This document shows positions 5,199-33,179 of a stretch of 41,611 bases of DNA, one piece after another (position 1 is the stretch's first letter; the number at the start of each line of letters is the position of its first letter). The notes beneath the pieces were generated by a model. That model was given only the letters and a program-made list of their open reading frames with translations. It did no database searches and was not told where the DNA came from. The position numbers and the translations under genes were made by a program. This stretch comes from Opitutaceae bacterium (lineage in GTDB: Bacteria > Verrucomicrobiota > Verrucomicrobiia > Opitutales > Opitutaceae), in the NCBI GenBank assembly GCA_014879845.1, contig JACSRI010000270.1, positions 1 to 41,611 on the forward strand, read 5' to 3'.

Positions 5199-6443
5199 CT
5201 AGACGAGGACCTTTTCCAACACGGCCTCGGCGGCCAGTCTGCCGGACTCGAGTGCGCCGTTGATGGACGCGATGTTGCGCCAATCGCCGGCGGCCACGAG
5301 CCAATCCTGGAGGCGGGGCGAGCGGCGAACCTCCGCCAGGACCCCGGCCGACTGATCCGGCAGGGCCCGAGGGATCCTGTAGACGCGCTCGAGCTTCCAC
5401 TCGCCCACCCGCATGCCGAACCAATCGACCAGTTGACGGCGCACTTCGTCGTCCAGCGCCGCGTCGTCCCGCGTGGGCACGCCCAACACCGAGACACTCG
5501 CGAGCGCACGCCCGCGCGGAGCGTAAAGCGAGGAGACCTCGGACATGAAAGTGATGTTGTTGACCACGCCGCGCGGCTCGCCGTTGAGCAGGAGGAGCGG
5601 GCCCCGCACCGGCGGTTCGCCGAGGCTGTAGTAGAGGTTGGTGACGCCGCGAAAACGCGGCTCGGGCAACCCGTCAATCAGGCGCACCGCCGTGCCCGGA
5701 TCCGTGGCGACGACGATCTGGGAGCAAAGCAGCGTGCGTCCATCCGCCACGTGGACGCAGCCCTTCGAAACGCGCTCGACCGGGCAGTTGAGCTGCAGCC
5801 GGCCGGCCGCGAGTCCCGCAGCCAGTTGCTCGGGAATGCGCCCCATGCCCGCCGCCGGCACGGCCGCACGCCCCTTGGAGAACATCCGGAACGCCCACCG
5901 GAATTTCCGGCTCGAGGTGCTCAGTTCGTTTTCCAGGAAGACCCCGCCCAAAAACGGCCGGAAGAACGCCTCCACGATCTCGTCGCCAAAACCCTCGAGC
6001 CGCAGCGCCTCACGCGTGGTCACCTCGGGCTGGGCAAGCAGTGTCTCGAGGTCAGGCGAGGTCACGCGCGTGCGCAGGCGGGCGATCCGGACCTTGTCGA
6101 GCGCCGAGCCGCAGCCGCTGAACAACGAACGCACCAGCGCCGACGGCCGGCGCCACGGGTCGACGAGCGGTGAAAACCGCCCGCCACGATAGACCACCGC
6201 ACCTGCCTCGAAGAACTGCAGGTCGAGCGCGCCGAAGTCCAGGAGCCGACCCGCCTCCGCATAGCTCGTGAGAAACACCTGGAACCCACGATCGAAAAGG
6301 AAGCCCTTGTGCGCGTCGGTGCGCACGCGACCGCCCGGGGCGTCGGAGGCTTCGAGCAGGACGAAGTCGACTCCCGCCTCCTGCAGGCGCAGCGCACACG
6401 ACAAGCCGGCCAATCCGGCCCCCACGATGACGACGTCGCTCAT
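5199..6443 (-). CDS. FAD-dependent amine-oxidase/phytoene-desaturase-like protein
   Basis: A flavoprotein oxidoreductase of 414 residues, substrate unknown. The start at 6443 ([13 protein letters not shown]) puts the Rossmann dinucleotide motif G8-x-G10-x2-G13 at the very N-terminus. The ATG at 6461 would only add [21 protein letters not shown] is the E-x7-GGR-x4 signature of the flavin amine oxidase / protoporphyrinogen oxidase / carotene desaturase superfamily. The C-terminal [26 protein letters not shown] is the usual flavin-binding end of these enzymes. [11 protein letters not shown] and [18 protein letters not shown] resemble bacterial FAD proteins usually annotated only as NAD(P)-binding. 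No carotenoid, haem or polyamine gene is adjacent to give a substrate. The epimerase upstream (75-bp gap) may be co-transcribed. Confidence 0.82.
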
Positions 6444-19749: not shown

Positions 19750-22476
<2,727 letters not shown>

Positions 22477-24103: not shown

Positions 24104-24547
24104 TCAATGCCCCTCGCACGTGCACGCGTACTCGGCGCGCGAGCATCCCCCGCAATGCGCCAGATTGAGGTCGATGCGGTGATTCTGCGGTTTGTCCCCG
24201 GGCGCCGACCTCACCTGGAGGACGACACGATACGGCGCGCCGTCCGGCAGCGCCTCCTTGGAGATGAAGCCGGTCGCCGTGGGCTCGAGCGCCACGGTGG
24301 TGCGCCCGCCGGGCACCTCGGCCGTGAGCGTGACGACCTGGGTGCCGGGAGCCACCGGCTGAAGGGCCGCGTCGTAGAACACGACCTCGGCTTTCTTCTC
24401 GGGCGTGACGAAAAACTCCGCCCGGGCCGGCGTGGTTTCGAGCAGTCGACCGCCCTTGGGGCCGGCCTGGACCTTTTCGGCCCGGGCCGATGAGACGAAG
24501 GCGGCGCCGAGCAGCGCCGCGACGAGGATGGTGCGCAGGTATGTCAT
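24104..24547 (-). CDS. Exported Cys-rich-tailed protein of the metal-efflux operon
   Basis: A periplasmic protein of 147 residues with a cleavable signal (MTYLRTILVAALLGAAFVSSARA, cut before EKVQ). The mature start GPKGGRLLETTPARAEFFVT (29-48), followed by AEVVFYDAALQPV, resembles the PHGG...YVLD module found alone in the lipoprotein at 33673 and within CzcB-type adaptors. The C-terminus is HCGGC-x6-CTCEGH, with C132, C135, C142, C144, H131 and H147, a probable soft-metal site. It is the last gene of the operon. Its ATG overlaps the pump stop (ATGA at 24544-24547), so translation is probably coupled. Metallochaperone is the most likely role, by inference. Confidence 0.7.
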   Translation of the reverse strand: MTYLRTILVAALLGAAFVSSARAEKVQAGPKGGRLLETTPARAEFFVTPEKKAEVVFYDAALQPVAPGTQVVTLTAEVPGGRTTVALEPTATGFISKEALPDGAPYRVVLQVRSAPGDKPQNHRIDLNLAHCGGCSRAEYACTCEGH

Positions 24548-27500
24548 GTTTGGGATGGTTGTGAGATGGAAGCCGAACGAGGCGCCCGCCCGCCCTCGAT
24601 CCAGTCGTAGAGCACCGGCAGCACGACCAAGGTCAGGAAGGTCGCCGTGACGATCCCGCCGATCACCACGGTCGCGAGCGGGCGCTGCACCTCTGCGCCG
24701 GGGCCGGTCGACAGCGCCATCGGCACGAAGCCGAGCGAGGCGACGAGCGCAGTCATGAGCTTGGGCCGCAGGCGCGTGAGCGTGCCTTCGACCACCGCCG
24801 CGCGCACCTCGCGCCCCTGTGCGCGCAGCTGGTTGATGAAGCTGATGAGCATGATGCCGTTGAGCACGGCGATGCCGGAGAGCGCGATGAAACCCACCGC
24901 CGCCGAGATGGTGAAAGGCAGCCCGCGCATCCACAGCGCGGCCACGCCGCCGGTCACCGCCAGAGGCACGCACACGAAGATCAGCGCCGCCTGCCGCGCG
25001 CTGCCGAAACTCGCGTAGATGAGCGCGAAGATGAGCGCCAGCGCCACGGGCACGACGATCGCCAGCCGCGCCCGCGCGGCTTGGAGGTTCTCGAACTGAC
25101 CGCCAAACTCGAAACTGTATCCGGCCGGCCATGCCACGGCGGAGCGCAGCCGCGCCTCCGCCTCGCGCACGAAACCCTCGGTGTCGCGCCCGCGCACGTT
25201 GATCAGGATCGCGACCCGGCGCTGCGTGTTCTCGCGCGTGATCGTGCCCACGCGGTCGGCCACCTCGATGCGCGCGAGCCGGCCGAGGGGGACCTGGATG
25301 CCGTCGTTTTCCTCCGTGCGCACGGGAAGGTCGGCCAGCGCCGCGACGTCGAGCCGCCGCGCCTCGGGCAGCCGGACGACCACGTCGAAACGCCGGCTGC
25401 CCTCGATGATCGAACCCGCCGGCACGCCGCCGAGCGCGGCGGCGACAGTGTCGTTGATCTCGTCGGCGTGCAGGTTGAGCGCCTGCAGCGCCTCGCGCCG
25501 CGGCGTGATCTCGAGCATGGGCACGCGGCCCAGCGCCTCGAACTCGACGTCGCCGCCGCCCGGCACGTCGCGCAGCACATCGCGCGCAACCATGGCGAGG
25601 CGCTCGAGTTCCTCGAAGTCGTCGCCGTAGATCTTGAGCGCGAGGTCGGCGCGCGCGCCGGCCATCATCTCGTTGAAGCGCAGCTGCACGGGCTGGGTGA
25701 AGAGGTAGGTCTGGCCGGGCACGGTCTCCGCCAGCGTGTCACGCATGAGCTCGACGAGTTCCGCCTTGCTGATCGTGCGTCCGTCGACGCGCCGCCACTG
25801 TTCGTGCGGCTGGAGCTGCACGTAGGTGTCCGAGGTGTTCGGGCCCATCGGGTCCATCGCGATCTCCGCCGTGCCGATGCGCGAGAAGAGCAGGCGGATC
25901 TCGGGGAACTGCTCCAGCAGGAGTCGCTCCGAGCGCCGCTGCAGGTCGACCGAGGCGACCAGGCCCACGCTGTTGCCGCGGATCATCTGCAAGGCGATCG
26001 AGCCCTCGTCGAGCTGCGGGATGAACTCGGCGCCCAGCCGCAGGAAGACCGCGACCGCGCCGCCGAAGAGGACCACGGCGGCGAGCACGACCGCCATCCG
26101 CACGCGCAACGCCGCCGCGAGCAGCGGCGTGTAGATGGCCTTGGCCACGCGTACGAGCCAGCCGTCACGCTCGGCGATGCTGCCTGAGAGCATCCACGAA
26201 CACAGCACCGGCATGAGCGTGAGCGCGAGCGCGAGCGCGCCGCCGATGGCGAGCATCACGGCGATGGCCATCGGCCGGAACATCTTCCCCTCGATCCCGG
26301 CCAGCGCGAGGATCGGCACGTAAACCACGGTGATGATGAGCACGCCGAAGAACATCGGGCGCGCGACCTCGCGCGCGGACGTGCGCACCTCCGCGAGTCG
26401 TTCGGCTGCCGTGAGTTTTCTCCCCAACGCATGCTGCCGCTCGGCGAGGTGGCGCATGATATTCTCCACCATCACGATCGCCCCGTCGACGATCAGTCCG
26501 AAGTCGATCGCACCCAGGCTCATGAGGTTCGCGCTCAATCCGCCCTGCGCCAGCCCGGTGAGCGTGAAGAGAAACGAGAGCGGGATCGCCAGCGTGACGA
26601 TGGCCGCAGCGCGCCAGTTGCCCAGCAGCGCGAAGAGCACAGCCGCCACGAGGATGGCGCCCTCGACCAGGTTGGTCTCGACCGTGCGGATGGTGGCGTT
26701 GACCAGATCGGACCGGTCATACGTCACGCGCAGTTCCACCCCGGTCGGGAGCCGGCGCTGGATCTCGTGCAGACGCTCGACGGCGGCCTGGGCGACCAGC
26801 CGGCTGTTGCCGCCCGCGAGCATGATGGCCGCACCGGTGACCGTCTCCTCGCCGTCCTCGGTCGACGCGCCCGTGCGCACGGCCGAGCCGATACCCACTC
26901 CGGCCAGATCACCCACGGTGATCGGCCGCACGCCGCCGGCGAACTTCACCGGCAGCCCCGCGAGGTCGGCTGCGGTGCGCACGCGCGTATCCGCGCGCAC
27001 AATCACGGCCTCCCCGCCCAGTTCGAGGATGCCTCCGCCGGCGTTGTCCGTGCTCTTGCGCACCGTGTCGATGAGCTGCGCGAAACTCACGCCGGCGTGC
27101 GCGAGCTTTTCCGGATCGGGTTCGACGACAAACTGACGCTCGTAGCCGCCGATGGCATTCACCTCCGCCAGGCCCGGAGTGGCGCGCAACAGCGGCTTGA
27201 TCTGCAGGTCGTGGATGAGCCGCAGCGTGCGCAACTGCTCGTCGCGGTCGGTCGGTCGGTCCGGCGCGTCGGCACGATAACGCACGGTATAGTAGACGAT
27301 CTCGCCCAGGCCGGTGCTGATCGGCGCGAGGCCGGGCGCAAGCCCTTCCGGCAATGCTTCACGCGTGTGCGCGAGCCGCTCGGTCACGAGCTGGCGCGCG
27401 AGGTGGATGTCAGTGCCGTCCTCGAAGGTCATCGTGACCTGCGACAGGCCGAACTTCGAGAGCGAGCGCAGCTCGCGCAGCCCGGGCAGCCCAGCCATCT

Positions 27501-27714
27501 CGGCCTCGATCGGCACGGTCACGAGCGTCTCGATCTCCTCGGGCGCGAGGCTGTCGACCGCGGTGTTGATCTGCACCTGCGGGCTCGTGATGTCCGGCAC
27601 GGCATCGATCGGCACGCGCGTGGCGGACCACACGCCCACGACAGCGAGTGCCAGCACGCCGAACACGATGAGCGCACGACGCCGCAGCGAAAACTCGACG
27701 ATATGTTCGAGCAT
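24544..27714 (-). CDS. Heavy-metal efflux RND pump (CzcA/CusA family)
   Basis: A proton-driven inner-membrane exporter of 1056 residues, full family length. Twelve membrane spans are arranged as in RND pumps: one at the N-terminus, two groups of five, one near the end. Helix 4 carries DFGLIVDGAIVMVEN (404-418) with D404, D410 and E417, the acid set of divalent-cation HME-RND pumps (Zn/Co/Cd/Ni type), unlike the Cu/Ag CusA group. VPIDAVPDITSPQVQINT near the N-terminus and GAEFIPQLDEGSIALQM in the porter domain are diagnostic. The metal is inferred only. It begins 11 bp after the small adaptor-like gene and overlaps the downstream gene by 4 bp. Confidence 0.93.
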   Translation of the reverse strand: MLEHIVEFSLRRRALIVFGVLALAVVGVWSATRVPIDAVPDITSPQVQINTAVDSLAPEEIETLVTVPIEAEMAGLPGLRELRSLSKFGLSQVTMTFEDGTDIHLARQLVTERLAHTREALPEGLAPGLAPISTGLGEIVYYTVRYRADAPDRPTDRDEQLRTLRLIHDLQIKPLLRATPGLAEVNAIGGYERQFVVEPDPEKLAHAGVSFAQLIDTVRKSTDNAGGGILELGGEAVIVRADTRVRTAADLAGLPVKFAGGVRPITVGDLAGVGIGSAVRTGASTEDGEETVTGAAIMLAGGNSRLVAQAAVERLHEIQRRLPTGVELRVTYDRSDLVNATIRTVETNLVEGAILVAAVLFALLGNWRAAAIVTLAIPLSFLFTLTGLAQGGLSANLMSLGAIDFGLIVDGAIVMVENIMRHLAERQHALGRKLTAAERLAEVRTSAREVARPMFFGVLIITVVYVPILALAGIEGKMFRPMAIAVMLAIGGALALALTLMPVLCSWMLSGSIAERDGWLVRVAKAIYTPLLAAALRVRMAVVLAAVVLFGGAVAVFLRLGAEFIPQLDEGSIALQMIRGNSVGLVASVDLQRRSERLLLEQFPEIRLLFSRIGTAEIAMDPMGPNTSDTYVQLQPHEQWRRVDGRTISKAELVELMRDTLAETVPGQTYLFTQPVQLRFNEMMAGARADLALKIYGDDFEELERLAMVARDVLRDVPGGGDVEFEALGRVPMLEITPRREALQALNLHADEINDTVAAALGGVPAGSIIEGSRRFDVVVRLPEARRLDVAALADLPVRTEENDGIQVPLGRLARIEVADRVGTITRENTQRRVAILINVRGRDTEGFVREAEARLRSAVAWPAGYSFEFGGQFENLQAARARLAIVVPVALALIFALIYASFGSARQAALIFVCVPLAVTGGVAALWMRGLPFTISAAVGFIALSGIAVLNGIMLISFINQLRAQGREVRAAVVEGTLTRLRPKLMTALVASLGFVPMALSTGPGAEVQRPLATVVIGGIVTATFLTLVVLPVLYDWIEGGRAPRSASISQPSQT

Positions 27715-27725
27715 GGCGTGAACCC

Positions 27726-28202
27726 TCAGTGCCCGTCCGCGCAGCCCACGCCGCCGTTGACGGCCGAGATCTCGGCGAGCCAGAGCGCGTCCACGCCGGC
27801 CACCGCGACACGGTCGCCCTCGTAGAGCCCATCGCGGACCTCGACCCAGCCGTCCTCGCTCACGCCAACGGACACTGGCGTGCGCAGCAGCCAGCCACCA
27901 TTGTCCACGAAGACGAAGGTCCCGCGCACCGTGTGTAACACCGCGTCGCGCGGCACGGCCGTCGCGGCCGATGCCGAGGGAAGATCGCGCGTCTCCACAT
28001 CGCCAAGACGCAAGCCCACGAAGGCCGCGGCCGTCGCCCCCAGACGCACGCCATGGCCGGCCTTATACTCGGCGGCCACGGCCTCCGCGCCATGCGCGTG
28101 GTGATCGTGACCGGCGCCCTCCGCGACGCCCCTCTCGTGACGGGGCGAACACCCGGCCAGGGCGAACACCAGCGAAAGAATCGGCAGCAGGCGCGGGCTC
28201 AT
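27726..28202 (-). CDS. Miniature RND adaptor-like lipoprotein (internally shortened)
   Basis: It occupies the adaptor position of a CzcCBA operon but has only 158 residues; CzcB/CusB adaptors have about 400. The signal peptide ends in the lipobox LAGC (C18). A His-rich stretch follows (H22, H32, H34, H35, H37). Then VRLGATAAAFVGLRLGDVETRDLP (52-75) matches the opening of the adaptor core. Directly after it, AVPRDAVLHTVRGTFVFVDNGG, RTPVSVGVSEDGWVEVRDGLYEGDRVAVAGV (82-137) matches the last, membrane-proximal domain. The alpha-hairpin, lipoyl and beta-barrel regions between are missing. The frame is intact, with a good start (ATG 28202 overlapping the upstream TGA) and stop, so it looks maintained rather than broken. 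The C-terminus is GCADGH. Confidence 0.72.
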   Translation of the reverse strand: MSPRLLPILSLVFALAGCSPRHERGVAEGAGHDHHAHGAEAVAAEYKAGHGVRLGATAAAFVGLRLGDVETRDLPSASAATAVPRDAVLHTVRGTFVFVDNGGWLLRTPVSVGVSEDGWVEVRDGLYEGDRVAVAGVDALWLAEISAVNGGVGCADGH

Positions 28203-29470
28203 GGCGCCACCTCCACCGCCTGCCAGGTCCCGCTGGTCAGGCCCTCAAGTTTCAGCCCCGCCTCAAGCGTGGCGCGCTCGATCGCGAGCACGCCCTCGAC
28301 CGCGTCAAGATAGGCGCCCTGCAATTCGACATAAGTGGTGATCGGCACGGCCCCGAGCCGGTAGTGCCGATCGGCCGTGGCCGCGGCCTCACGGAATGCC
28401 TCGATGGTCGCGGGCGGCCAGCGCTCGAGGTCGTCACGATGGGCCTGATACGCTTGCCGTGCGATGAGCACCTCGCGCTCGAGCTCGAGCTGAGCGGCTG
28501 CGAGCGACGCCTCGGCCTGTGCCCGACGCGCCTCCGCGGCGGCCGTTGCCGCCGGGGTGCGCCCGCCCAAGGGCAACGGCACGGAGACGCCGACACCCAG
28601 GGTCCGCTCCCGCTCGCCGGCGCGCTCCTCCTCGTAGAATGGCGCGAGCGTCACGGCCGGTTTGCCCTCGTGTCGCGCGAGGTCGACGCGCAGGCCCTGG
28701 CGTTCCAGTTCCACCACGCGCATCCGGAGCCCGAGGTTCTTCTCGCGCGCGAGCGCCGAGAGAACTCCGGCCTCGGGAACCGCCGCAAACTGCGAACGCC
28801 GGCCCTCCAGCGCGAGCGGCGTCTCCGGCGGCACGCCGCGCAGCAGGTTGAGCGCGATGAGCGCGGCATCGACCTCGAGCCGCGCCTGCGTGGCGCGACG
28901 CTGGAGCACGAGCTCCTGCGCCTCGATCACGCGGATCTCCAGCTGCGGCGTGAGGCCACCCGGCTCGCGCGCCAGGAACGTGGCCTTCAACTCGCCGAAA
29001 CGCGCCGCCACCTCCGCCGCGGCCGCGGCCGCGGCCCGCGCGGCGAGCAACTCGAGCGCGAGGGCGCGCACGCGACCCGCCAGTTCGGCGCGAAAACCCG
29101 CGAACCCCAACTCGGCGAGTGCGAGATCGCGGTCGGCCACCGCCTTGCGCAGCGCGAGGCGCCCGGGCCACTCGAAGGTCTGAGCGAGCGAGACGCTCCA
29201 GGCCGCTCCTTCGCGCGAGAGGCCGGCGTCACCGACGCTCTTGCGCCCGAGGCTGAAGGCCAGTTCCGGGTCCGCCCAAGCGCGCGCCGCACGACCCTCG
29301 GCGCGCGCGGCGGCGATCTCGGCCTCGTAGAAAGCCAGCTCCGGATGAGAGGCCGAGACCGACGCGACGAGGGCATCGACGCTGACGCGGGCCGGCTCGT
29401 CCGACGCGGCCAGGTGGGCGGCGCACGGGATCAGACTCAGAGAAATGAATACCGAACAAAGCGAACGCAT
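28199..29470 (-). CDS. TolC-family outer-membrane channel protein (CzcC-like)
   Basis: The outer-membrane partner of the efflux system, 423 residues with signal peptide MRSLCSVFISLSLIPCAAHLA. Two repeats of the TolC fold are visible. The first covers about 35-210 (VASVSASHPELAFYEAEIAAARAEGRAARAWADPEL, LAQTFEWPGRLALRKAVADRD). The second covers about 230-410 (ALAREKNLGLRMRVVELERQGLRVDLARHEGKPAVTLAPFYEEE, GVGVSVPLPLGGRTPAATAAAEARRA). The long Ala/Leu/Glu/Arg helices fit the trans-periplasmic tunnel. Its TGA overlaps the ATG of the mini-adaptor (ATGA). It lies second in the operon, 104 bp after the Cys-rich leader gene. Confidence 0.9.
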   Translation of the reverse strand: MRSLCSVFISLSLIPCAAHLAASDEPARVSVDALVASVSASHPELAFYEAEIAAARAEGRAARAWADPELAFSLGRKSVGDAGLSREGAAWSVSLAQTFEWPGRLALRKAVADRDLALAELGFAGFRAELAGRVRALALELLAARAAAAAAAEVAARFGELKATFLAREPGGLTPQLEIRVIEAQELVLQRRATQARLEVDAALIALNLLRGVPPETPLALEGRRSQFAAVPEAGVLSALAREKNLGLRMRVVELERQGLRVDLARHEGKPAVTLAPFYEEERAGERERTLGVGVSVPLPLGGRTPAATAAAEARRAQAEASLAAAQLELEREVLIARQAYQAHRDDLERWPPATIEAFREAAATADRHYRLGAVPITTYVELQGAYLDAVEGVLAIERATLEAGLKLEGLTSGTWQAVEVAP

Positions 29471-29574: not shown

Positions 29575-29979
29575 TCAGGCCGCGATCCGTCCCGGAGCGT
29601 TCGCCAGCGGCGCCGCCCGACGCACAAACATCCACTGCCCCGCACACGCCGACTCCGGCGGCGGCCGCGGCAGCACTTGTTTCGCCTCGACGCCGGCGTT
29701 CACCGCCAGCGAGTTCTGCCAGGCGATCACGAAGATCGCCCCGAGGCCCGGCATGGCCACATCCACTGAGCCACACTCGGTCCTGAAGTGGCCGTCATCG
29801 AAGATGCCACAGTGATCGGCCACGCAGGCCCCCGTCGAGGCGACCGCCCCGTCGGATTCGTGCGAACAGCAGCGCGCCTCCGGCGACTCCTCGCCCAGCA
29901 TCTCGATCCCGCAATGCACGACGGCCGGCAGCCAGAGGGCGGCCAGCACGAACGCGATCACGCGGTGAACTCGGGACAT
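29575..29979 (-). CDS. Exported Cys/His-rich small protein, first gene of metal operon
   Basis: A secreted or anchored protein of 134 residues from the ATG at 29979. MSRVHRVIAFVLAALWLPAVVHCGIE is a signal-like segment. Seven cysteines (23, 37, 38, 52, 57, 69, 112) and H22, H40, H56, H64 crowd the first 70 residues, including ARCCSHES and ACVADHCGIFDDGHFRTEC. A second hydrophobic stretch (MPGLGAIFVIAWQNSLAV) follows. No named family is recognised. Position and composition suggest periplasmic metal binding or sensing ahead of the pump. It overlaps no other gene. A consensus-like promoter lies directly before its ATG. Confidence 0.65.
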   Translation of the reverse strand: MSRVHRVIAFVLAALWLPAVVHCGIEMLGEESPEARCCSHESDGAVASTGACVADHCGIFDDGHFRTECGSVDVAMPGLGAIFVIAWQNSLAVNAGVEAKQVLPRPPPESACAGQWMFVRRAAPLANAPGRIAA

Positions 29980-29988
29980 CGGCCGACC

Positions 29989-30017
29989 GATATCGGCGCG
30001 GATGATGCGCCTGTCAA
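29989..30017 (-). promoter_or_regulatory. Promoter of the metal-efflux operon, nearly leaderless
   Basis: On the minus strand a perfect -35 TTGACA (30017-30012) and GATATC (29994-29989) are separated by 17 bp. GATATC matches the -10 consensus in 3 of 6 positions. Transcription would start near 29982, only about 3 bases before the ATG at 29979. The rest of the 338-bp divergent gap to the kinase gene (30018-30317) contains nothing I can identify. Confidence 0.5.
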
Positions 30018-30317
30018 CTCCGGCCGCAGTCGAGCCCGGGGGGACCGGTCTGGCCAAGTCCTTGCAACGTCTGGGTAGCGTTCGGGTGTGGGCCGTCCGC
30101 AAGACCGCCAACTTCACGCGAGATCCAAAGCTACGTCGATCTGCACACCGCCGCGGCCTCAGGACGGGATGCAACAATCGACATGTCCCCGGCTCATGTC
30201 GGAGTTTCCGGGCCGACCCTCAATCGCCCTGCCCCGGGGTCGATACCCCAGATGCACGGGCATGGCTCTGCACCTCCCGAGGCCGGCACTCGAAGGCGCG
30301 GCGCCGGCCCCGCGCGC

Positions 30318-33179
<2,862 letters not shown>

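Follow-up and report, generated by a model that had tools for sequence, protein, structure and literature searches.

A putative RND adaptor reduced to its membrane-proximal domain in heavy-metal efflux operons of Opitutaceae

Adaptors of RND efflux systems are usually held at the inner membrane, and the periplasmic tips of TolC are the binding place of canonical adaptors. How a pump and its outer membrane channel work together when the adaptor gene between them is about 200 residues shorter than usual is the question raised by one operon in the window, by which we mean the whole stretch of 41,611 nucleotides from an Opitutaceae bacterium (assembly GCA_014879845.1, contig JACSRI010000270.1) that was analyzed. 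A first-pass annotation had described this gene as an in-frame, lipobox-bearing CzcB-like adaptor with a His-rich stretch, lacking the hairpin, lipoyl and barrel domains and coupled to its neighbours. The operon order is up, TolC, mini, CzcA and dn, with the following features:

29575..29979, minus strand: up, small Cys-containing protein ahead of TolC, start codon assumed
28199..29470, minus strand: TolC/CzcC-type outer membrane factor (OMF), 423 aa, OEP Pfam E 4.1e-23
Periplasmic tips of the TolC protein: REPGGLTPQLEIRVIEA and RHYRLGAVPITTYVELQ
27726..28202, minus strand: mini adaptor gene, ATG at 28202, stop ending at 27726, 158 aa
Parts of the mini adaptor: lipoprotein signal, short His-containing linker, membrane-proximal domain (MPD) at about 44-148, tail GGVGCADGH
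24544..27714, minus strand: CzcA/CusA-family heavy-metal RND pump, 1056 aa, motif DFGLIVDGAIVMVEN
24104..24547, minus strand: dn, small secreted protein with a Cys-rich tail, start overlapping the CzcA stop

The intact frame, start and stop of mini and its coupling to the neighbouring genes were confirmed on the minus strand, the plus-strand reading of 27726-28202 containing a stop. The mini start overlaps the TolC stop (ATGA, 28199-28202), the CzcA start lies 11 nt past the mini stop, and the dn start overlaps the CzcA stop (ATGA, 24544-24547), which places mini in an operon with an RND pump and an OMF. The lipobox was also found (LAGC, C18), within a signal peptide and accompanied by a short His stretch, and the product is a putative lipoprotein. 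The CzcA passed TIGR00914 (1225.8 bits, cut-off 701.45), and its motif DFGLIVDGAIVMVEN is presumably of the divalent-metal type; REPGGLTPQLEIRVIEA and RHYRLGAVPITTYVELQ are what we take to be the periplasmic tips by comparison with TolC. Two large hybrid histidine kinases with PAS domains flank the metal operon (19750-22476, minus; 30183-33179, plus).

The mini protein matched the adaptor profiles TIGR01730 (E 1.6e-10, residues 74-140 on profile positions 246-313 of 322) and TIGR00999 (E 2.7e-10), with scores under the curated whole-protein cut-offs (40.4 versus 94.9 bits and 39.8 versus 319.3 bits, respectively). The match exceeds chance and is confined to the C-terminal end of the profile. 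Pfam search of mini gave nothing useful; a CusF domain was found neither by Pfam at E 1 nor among the listed fold-search matches. An AlphaFold2 model built on a 32-row alignment had a mean pLDDT of 82.5, with 103 residues at 90 or above and block means of 89-98 over residues 41-150; it is confident over about 44-148 (pLDDT mostly >90) and contains one domain only. This model matched CusB 3ne5_C over model residues 49-148 (Z 14.2, rmsd 1.8, 100 residues), ZneB 3lnn (Z 13.1, rmsd 2.1, 98 residues) and BesA (Z 10.4, rmsd 2.4, 85 residues), and on the basis of the model the ordered part of mini is assigned as the MPD of an RND adaptor. The matched CusB range runs from 79 to 393 (first and last matched residue only), which suggests that both MPD halves are present and that the parts between them were cut out; no residues are left there for the beta-barrel, lipoyl and hairpin domains, which are absent. 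The domain reading of the first-pass annotation was thus borne out by matches to the MPDs of CusB, ZneB and BesA.

CusB, ZneB and CzcB share the MPD fold of mini (Z 14.2 for CusB and 13.1 for ZneB) and the same kinds of partners, and mini differs from them in its missing barrel, lipoyl and hairpin domains and in that the CzcB N-terminal domain is apparently a separate gene. BesA, the RND adaptor of BesABC from Borrelia burgdorferi, lacks the TolC-binding hairpin as mini does and shares an operon with an RND pump and an OMF; hairpin loss is already known from it. However, BesA keeps the lipoyl, barrel and MPD, whereas mini keeps the MPD alone and the mid form described below keeps barrel and MPD; mini is not of the BesA-type architecture, the lipoyl and barrel domains being missing besides the hairpin. 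BesABC also differs in that the operons related to that of mini include adaptor-less ones. The BesA partners, as far as the available part of PMC3807786 describes them, are not enlarged in compensation, and the same holds for the mini operons: CzcA was 1044-1118 aa in 17 mini rows, 1024-1067 in seven hairpin-less and 1033-1036 in four full rows, and TolC was 418-471 aa in 20 mini rows and 420-482 in nine outgroup rows (two partial mini-row frames, 404 and 334, were set aside). Compensation by a domain added to the pump or TolC was rejected on this comparison. The PN2 loop insertion of these pumps was set aside as a special adaptation because it resembles the 'Large Loop', a feature of CzrA-group pumps in the accessible text of PMC3637150.

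The SilB fragment 5a4g, comprising the N-terminal metal site and the MPD, was the top sequence match of mini (E 0.009) and ranked first in Foldseek with the mini model (Z 8.2, rmsd 3.1, 77 residues). By its entry title, this laboratory fragment has nearly the natural domain content of mini; it was cut from the full adaptor of a silver/copper system, whereas mini adjoins a CzcA whose motif is presumably of the divalent-metal type. YbjP of E. coli resembles mini by description only, being a small lipoprotein that acts with TolC, and it differs in working beside the full AcrA adaptor (available parts of PMC13082787 and PMC13095208).

In the genome of the window, one full match to mini was found, the next best having an E of 0.002. 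Among 57 relatives searched with mini, 35 matched at E 0.01, many of the matches being ordinary long adaptors. A ten-row profile at E 1e-15 matched 52 of the 252 genomes from the family of the window; the matches come from 19 of the 49 genera. When named genomes were scanned, the single mini protein gave no matches, whereas the alignment query yielded 40 loci, of which 38 bear a label of some rank within Verrucomicrobia (Opitutaceae being the most frequent) and two the label Nevskiales. A total of 24 mini operons were read, including 22 with TolC and CzcA neighbours and two (L166 and L170) whose pumps, 54-55% identical, are cut by contig ends; nearly all the mini operons belong to a single family, most likely Opitutaceae. 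In the 22 counted operons, the minis are 128-167 aa where the frame is clean, TolC always adjoins mini and the 4-nt overlap is found in 18 (the spacing differs in L157, L161, L167 and L171). The neighbouring CzcA proteins are mostly 71-78% identical to that of the window, L167 and L225 being lower. Broken or partial CzcA frames were met in L167 (two frames), L172 (split), L168 (contig end) and L276 (one internal TAG), and the adaptor was read from its conserved part, with the frame open upstream, in L066, L072, L074, L075, L154, L166, L170 and L171. A GC-rich palindromic repeat of the GGTCCGGTCTCCGACCGGAC type occurs in L066 (G010) in the gap between TolC and mini (about 5829-6181) and again past CzcA (2178-2315).

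A further 31 operons carry, in the same place, adaptors of 220-273 aa (L077, at 351 aa with a long His-rich part, excepted) that consist of barrel and MPD (mids), beside CzcA proteins 52-65% identical to that of the window. The model of a mid matched CusB over 47-224 (Z 14.9, rmsd 4.8, 178 residues) and has an extra barrel-like domain. The mini and mid sorts co-occur in several genomes, such as G036, G075, G082, G162 and G260. Longer adaptors of 342-388 aa also occupy this place (L077/L150, L126, L148 and L153), their extra length consisting by eye of His-rich extensions or inserts without lipoyl or hairpin. The mid adaptor of L153 (5122-6150) has no lipobox by eye and has a His-rich insertion in its C-terminal part, and the CzcA of L077 (G002) has His-containing insertions in two pump loops beside a 351-aa adaptor with 35 His.

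These relatives bear on the reading that mini, some 200 residues below the usual adaptor length, is a recent deletion, a pseudogene or an assembly artefact. Homologues of similar length recur in TolC-mini-CzcA operons, one of the 24 MPD-only operons lies in a single-contig genome (G013), and same-place relatives measure 128-167 or 220-273 aa and not uniformly about 400. Fourteen pairs among nine minis gave dN/dS of 0.12-0.32 at dS of 0.56-1.57 (partly saturated); these were the pairs of at least 60% identity among 36, the 22 under 60% being left out and the window's mini figuring in none. On these ratios the mini family is judged to be under purifying selection, seen in minis other than that of the window, for which no pair reached 60% identity. 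An explanation by recent damage was rejected on the relatives and the dN/dS of the other minis, and we regard it as extremely improbable. The mini frame is a genuine gene, conserved among relatives, that encodes a reduced periplasmic adaptor, to all appearance an MPD-only lipoprotein.

A pump search over the same 252 genomes revealed CzcA proteins 54-58% identical in genomes where the adaptor profile had no match. Of 15 such places (CzcA at least 54% identical), 12 were read (L226 and L266-L276), those in G255, G106 and G177:C454 being the other three. TolC runs straight into CzcA in these adaptor-less operons, the TolC stop and CzcA start overlapping as ATGA in 12 of 12, and one of them comes from G142, a single-contig genome with a listed completeness of 100%. 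At E 0.001 the adaptor profile gave weak matches in all 12 genomes (best 2.4e-12), none beginning before profile position 64 and nearly all lying in frames of at least 283 aa (exceptions 235 and 121 aa); these frames are probably other adaptors. Because the matches are weak and in long frames, there is no sign that a mini or mid was merely relocated.

To place the adaptor forms on the pumps, a CzcA tree of 50 rows was rooted on operons with complete adaptors, comprising 13 of the 22 minis, 17 of the 31 mids, 11 of the 12 adaptor-less operons (L276 is partial), six hairpin-less and three full; hairpin-less L235-L239 and L280-L282 and full L231-L233 and L285 were left out. All 13 mini rows formed one clade nested among the mids and all 11 adaptor-less rows formed another, each with a support of 100 from a quick method that uses no bootstrap, in a tree with long branches for L225 and L226. 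The mids form a grade around these two clades, and the outgroups have hairpin-less or complete adaptors; the five adaptor labels need four changes on this tree, which is the minimum. In a wider, rougher tree, 22 of 24 mini rows fell in one clade (100); the L170 row was a different CzcA and that of L166 was cut off, and both were placed later by their own pump starts. When these were added, the pair stood outside the main mini clade with a support of 92 on 290 columns only, the adaptor-less clade having 94. Given this position of L166 and L170, two separate losses of the barrel are possible, and the pair may represent a second origin of the mini form. Their MPD-only adaptors (L166 1332-2738, minus; L170 6603-7253, plus) have a different tail, RAGQAC, and belong to a separate pump lineage. 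By eye, the outgroup adaptors of L230-L234, L284 and L285 have a hairpin, and those of L228, L229, L235-L239 and L277-L283 are hairpin-less but have a lipoyl domain, the BesA type of architecture. The Opitutales relatives thus display a series in which the hairpin is missing, then the lipoyl domain as well (mid), then all but the MPD (mini), beside a parallel adaptor-less clade; hairpin-less adaptors stand at two places in the wider tree, so that the hairpin may have been lost more than once and the first losses may have come in another order. The full adaptors of L230-L234 have repeated Cys-rich blocks (CDPSKREKGRLWC...) ahead of the core, zinc-ribbon-like by eye.

The gene dn, in its family a secreted protein of about 145 aa positioned after CzcA, offers a further trace of a larger adaptor. 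Its profile matched hairpin-less CzcB-type adaptors at their N-terminal domain (probability 94.1, E 1.3e-7, 95 columns), and this adaptor domain appears to survive as the separate gene dn. It is present in 21 of 22 mini operons, the one miss being cut by a contig end, and in 26 of 31 mid operons, of which the remaining five have 0.9-7 kb of room. No dn was found after CzcA in any of the 12 adaptor-less operons; the sequence available there amounts to about 1 kb or more in nine and to less than 0.7 kb in three (L273, L275 and L276). In L272 a single weak match (39 residues, E 4e-4) lies at a distance of 5.4 kb. Thus dn and the adaptor tend to co-occur, which is what descent of both from one split adaptor would predict. 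The up protein was traced by tblastn (28% over 168 columns at 29584-30063), and its relatives precede TolC in mini operons, in mid operons and in six or more of the adaptor-less ones.

Features of the TolC proteins hint at an altered junction. Tips of closely similar sequence occur in mini and mid operons, with tip 2 near RHYRLGAVPxxTYxELQ (L225 has a deviant one), and tip 2 of this kind is retained in all 12 adaptor-less TolC tails; the tips beside hairpin-less or complete adaptors are unlike these. Among 51 mini and mid TolC rows (L162 and L167 left out), tip 2 ranked 12 of 368 windows in conservation and tip 1 ranked 36 of 366, with the non-tip stretch 98-112 conserved equally with the tips. 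TolC and a mid adaptor are joined in one frame at three of the 40 named loci, all in MAGs labelled Puniceicoccales:

L146, 614-2959: fused TolC-mid frame, linker of about 142 residues with 29 His
L147, 4279-6519: fused TolC-mid frame, linker of about 80 residues with 5 His
L149, 3287-5902: fused TolC-mid frame, linker of about 123 residues with 18 His; the sequence stops before any CzcA is reached

Neither a Met nor a lipobox was found in the three linkers. Among the unfused proteins, a pattern search recognized a lipobox in 20 of the 23 minis and in 27 of the 29 mids; Asp is at +2 in none of these 47. The +2 sorting rule for lipoproteins is known from E. coli; if it applies in these bacteria, the missing Asp would favour the outer membrane. 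Anchoring of adaptors is treated in the available part of PMC4446572.

The anatomy of the mini operon and its relatives was observed directly; from it we infer direct docking, outer-membrane anchoring and metal hand-off, which together make up a reading that we hold to be somewhat better than even: a reduced heavy-metal RND pump whose TolC docks at CzcA or close to it, with mini clamping the pump and aiding metal loading or assembly. The TolC tips would meet the docking domain of CzcA, or come very close to it, with no adaptor tunnel spanning the gap, unlike in AcrAB-TolC or CusCBA. Because TolC and CzcA are of ordinary length, direct or near-direct docking is the simplest way to a continuous path, an argument also made for hairpin-less BesA (PMC4446572, PMC3807786). 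The mini protein, attached through its lipid, would probably sit on the outer-membrane side, as judged from the missing Asp at +2 and the TolC fusions of relatives. It would clamp the CzcA porter beside the metal entry cleft and help to load metal or stabilize TolC on the pump; with the MPD as the only retained part, the pump would still be clamped close to where substrate enters, at the cost of the tunnel and of contact with the channel. The available part of PMC6975555 reports that the MPD makes extensive porter contacts, that the RND-binding boxes of AcrA-type adaptors are located in barrel and MPD only, and that the termini of one CusB copy lie at the PC1/PC2 cleft. Of the three options first offered for this gene, that pump and channel meet in a new way gained most, from the adaptor-less operons and the TolC-adaptor fusions.

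The option of a different adaptor, by contrast, keeps some weight and supplies the main rival to direct docking: the system would be tripartite in the usual way, its full-length adaptor being supplied by another locus, with mini as an accessory subunit in one of two adaptor positions. The accessible text of PMC4446572 refers to one pump that has two distinct adaptors. A search of the window's own genome for a separate full-length adaptor found 14 places that exceed the general RND adaptor cut-off by themselves and three others that do so together with their neighbours; nine of the 19 adaptor loci examined have no RND gene within 1.5 kb, but the other ten have their own, and some of the nine may by eye belong to ABC systems. 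The search for CzcB-type adaptors (TIGR00999) gave none over the cut-off in this genome, which says little, because none of 14 control genomes passed either. Long frames weakly matching the adaptor profile in 12 of 12 adaptor-less genomes could act in trans; the TolC tips of these operons, however, differ from those beside full or hairpin-less adaptors. On balance we consider a borrowed adaptor unlikely, though the strongest competitor of direct docking.

Less likely again is that mini is a metal-binding loader or regulator of CzcA without structural bridging, TolC being only loosely linked to it. The protein keeps the MPD together with possible metal ligands (His linker, Cys/His tail), the SilB metal-site fragment 5a4g heads both its sequence and Foldseek matches, and metal binding and partial resistance are ascribed to the first 61 CusB residues in the available part of PMC4446572. 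Against this stand the constant proximity and frequent overlap of TolC and mini (22 of 22 and 18 counted operons) and the TolC-adaptor fusions of the mid form. The His-rich stretch noted in the first-pass annotation exists in the window's mini as a short stretch but is not conserved, with 0-5 His among 20 minis; it was rejected as the feature defining the function, and because it varies the regulator reading is weakened, while a part in metal loading may still belong to mini.

Returning to direct docking, its bolder extension, to which we give somewhat less than an even chance, is a bipartite lineage in which TolC would sit directly on CzcA and the adaptor would be dispensable, left as an MPD clamp plus dn or gone altogether. 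If true, nature would here supply a case of the direct contact between pump and channel envisaged in 'deep interpenetration' models; the available part of PMC4446572 states that BesA, lacking the hairpin, agrees with direct RND-OMF contact but not with tip-to-tip models. A literature search that covered few subscription papers found no description of the loss of the lipoyl domain, the barrel or the whole adaptor on related pumps, of a separate N-domain or of TolC-adaptor fusions. The operon family forms a natural deletion series on related pumps, from complete adaptor to none, through which the least that an adaptor must do becomes directly testable, and it provides compact two- to three-component pumps for structural work.

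A P-type ATPase with a His/Cys-rich N-terminus lies downstream of the mini operon in L067 (4368-6350), L160 (10929-12902) and L159 (10971-12953), the E1-E2 Pfam match having been tested in L067 and L160.
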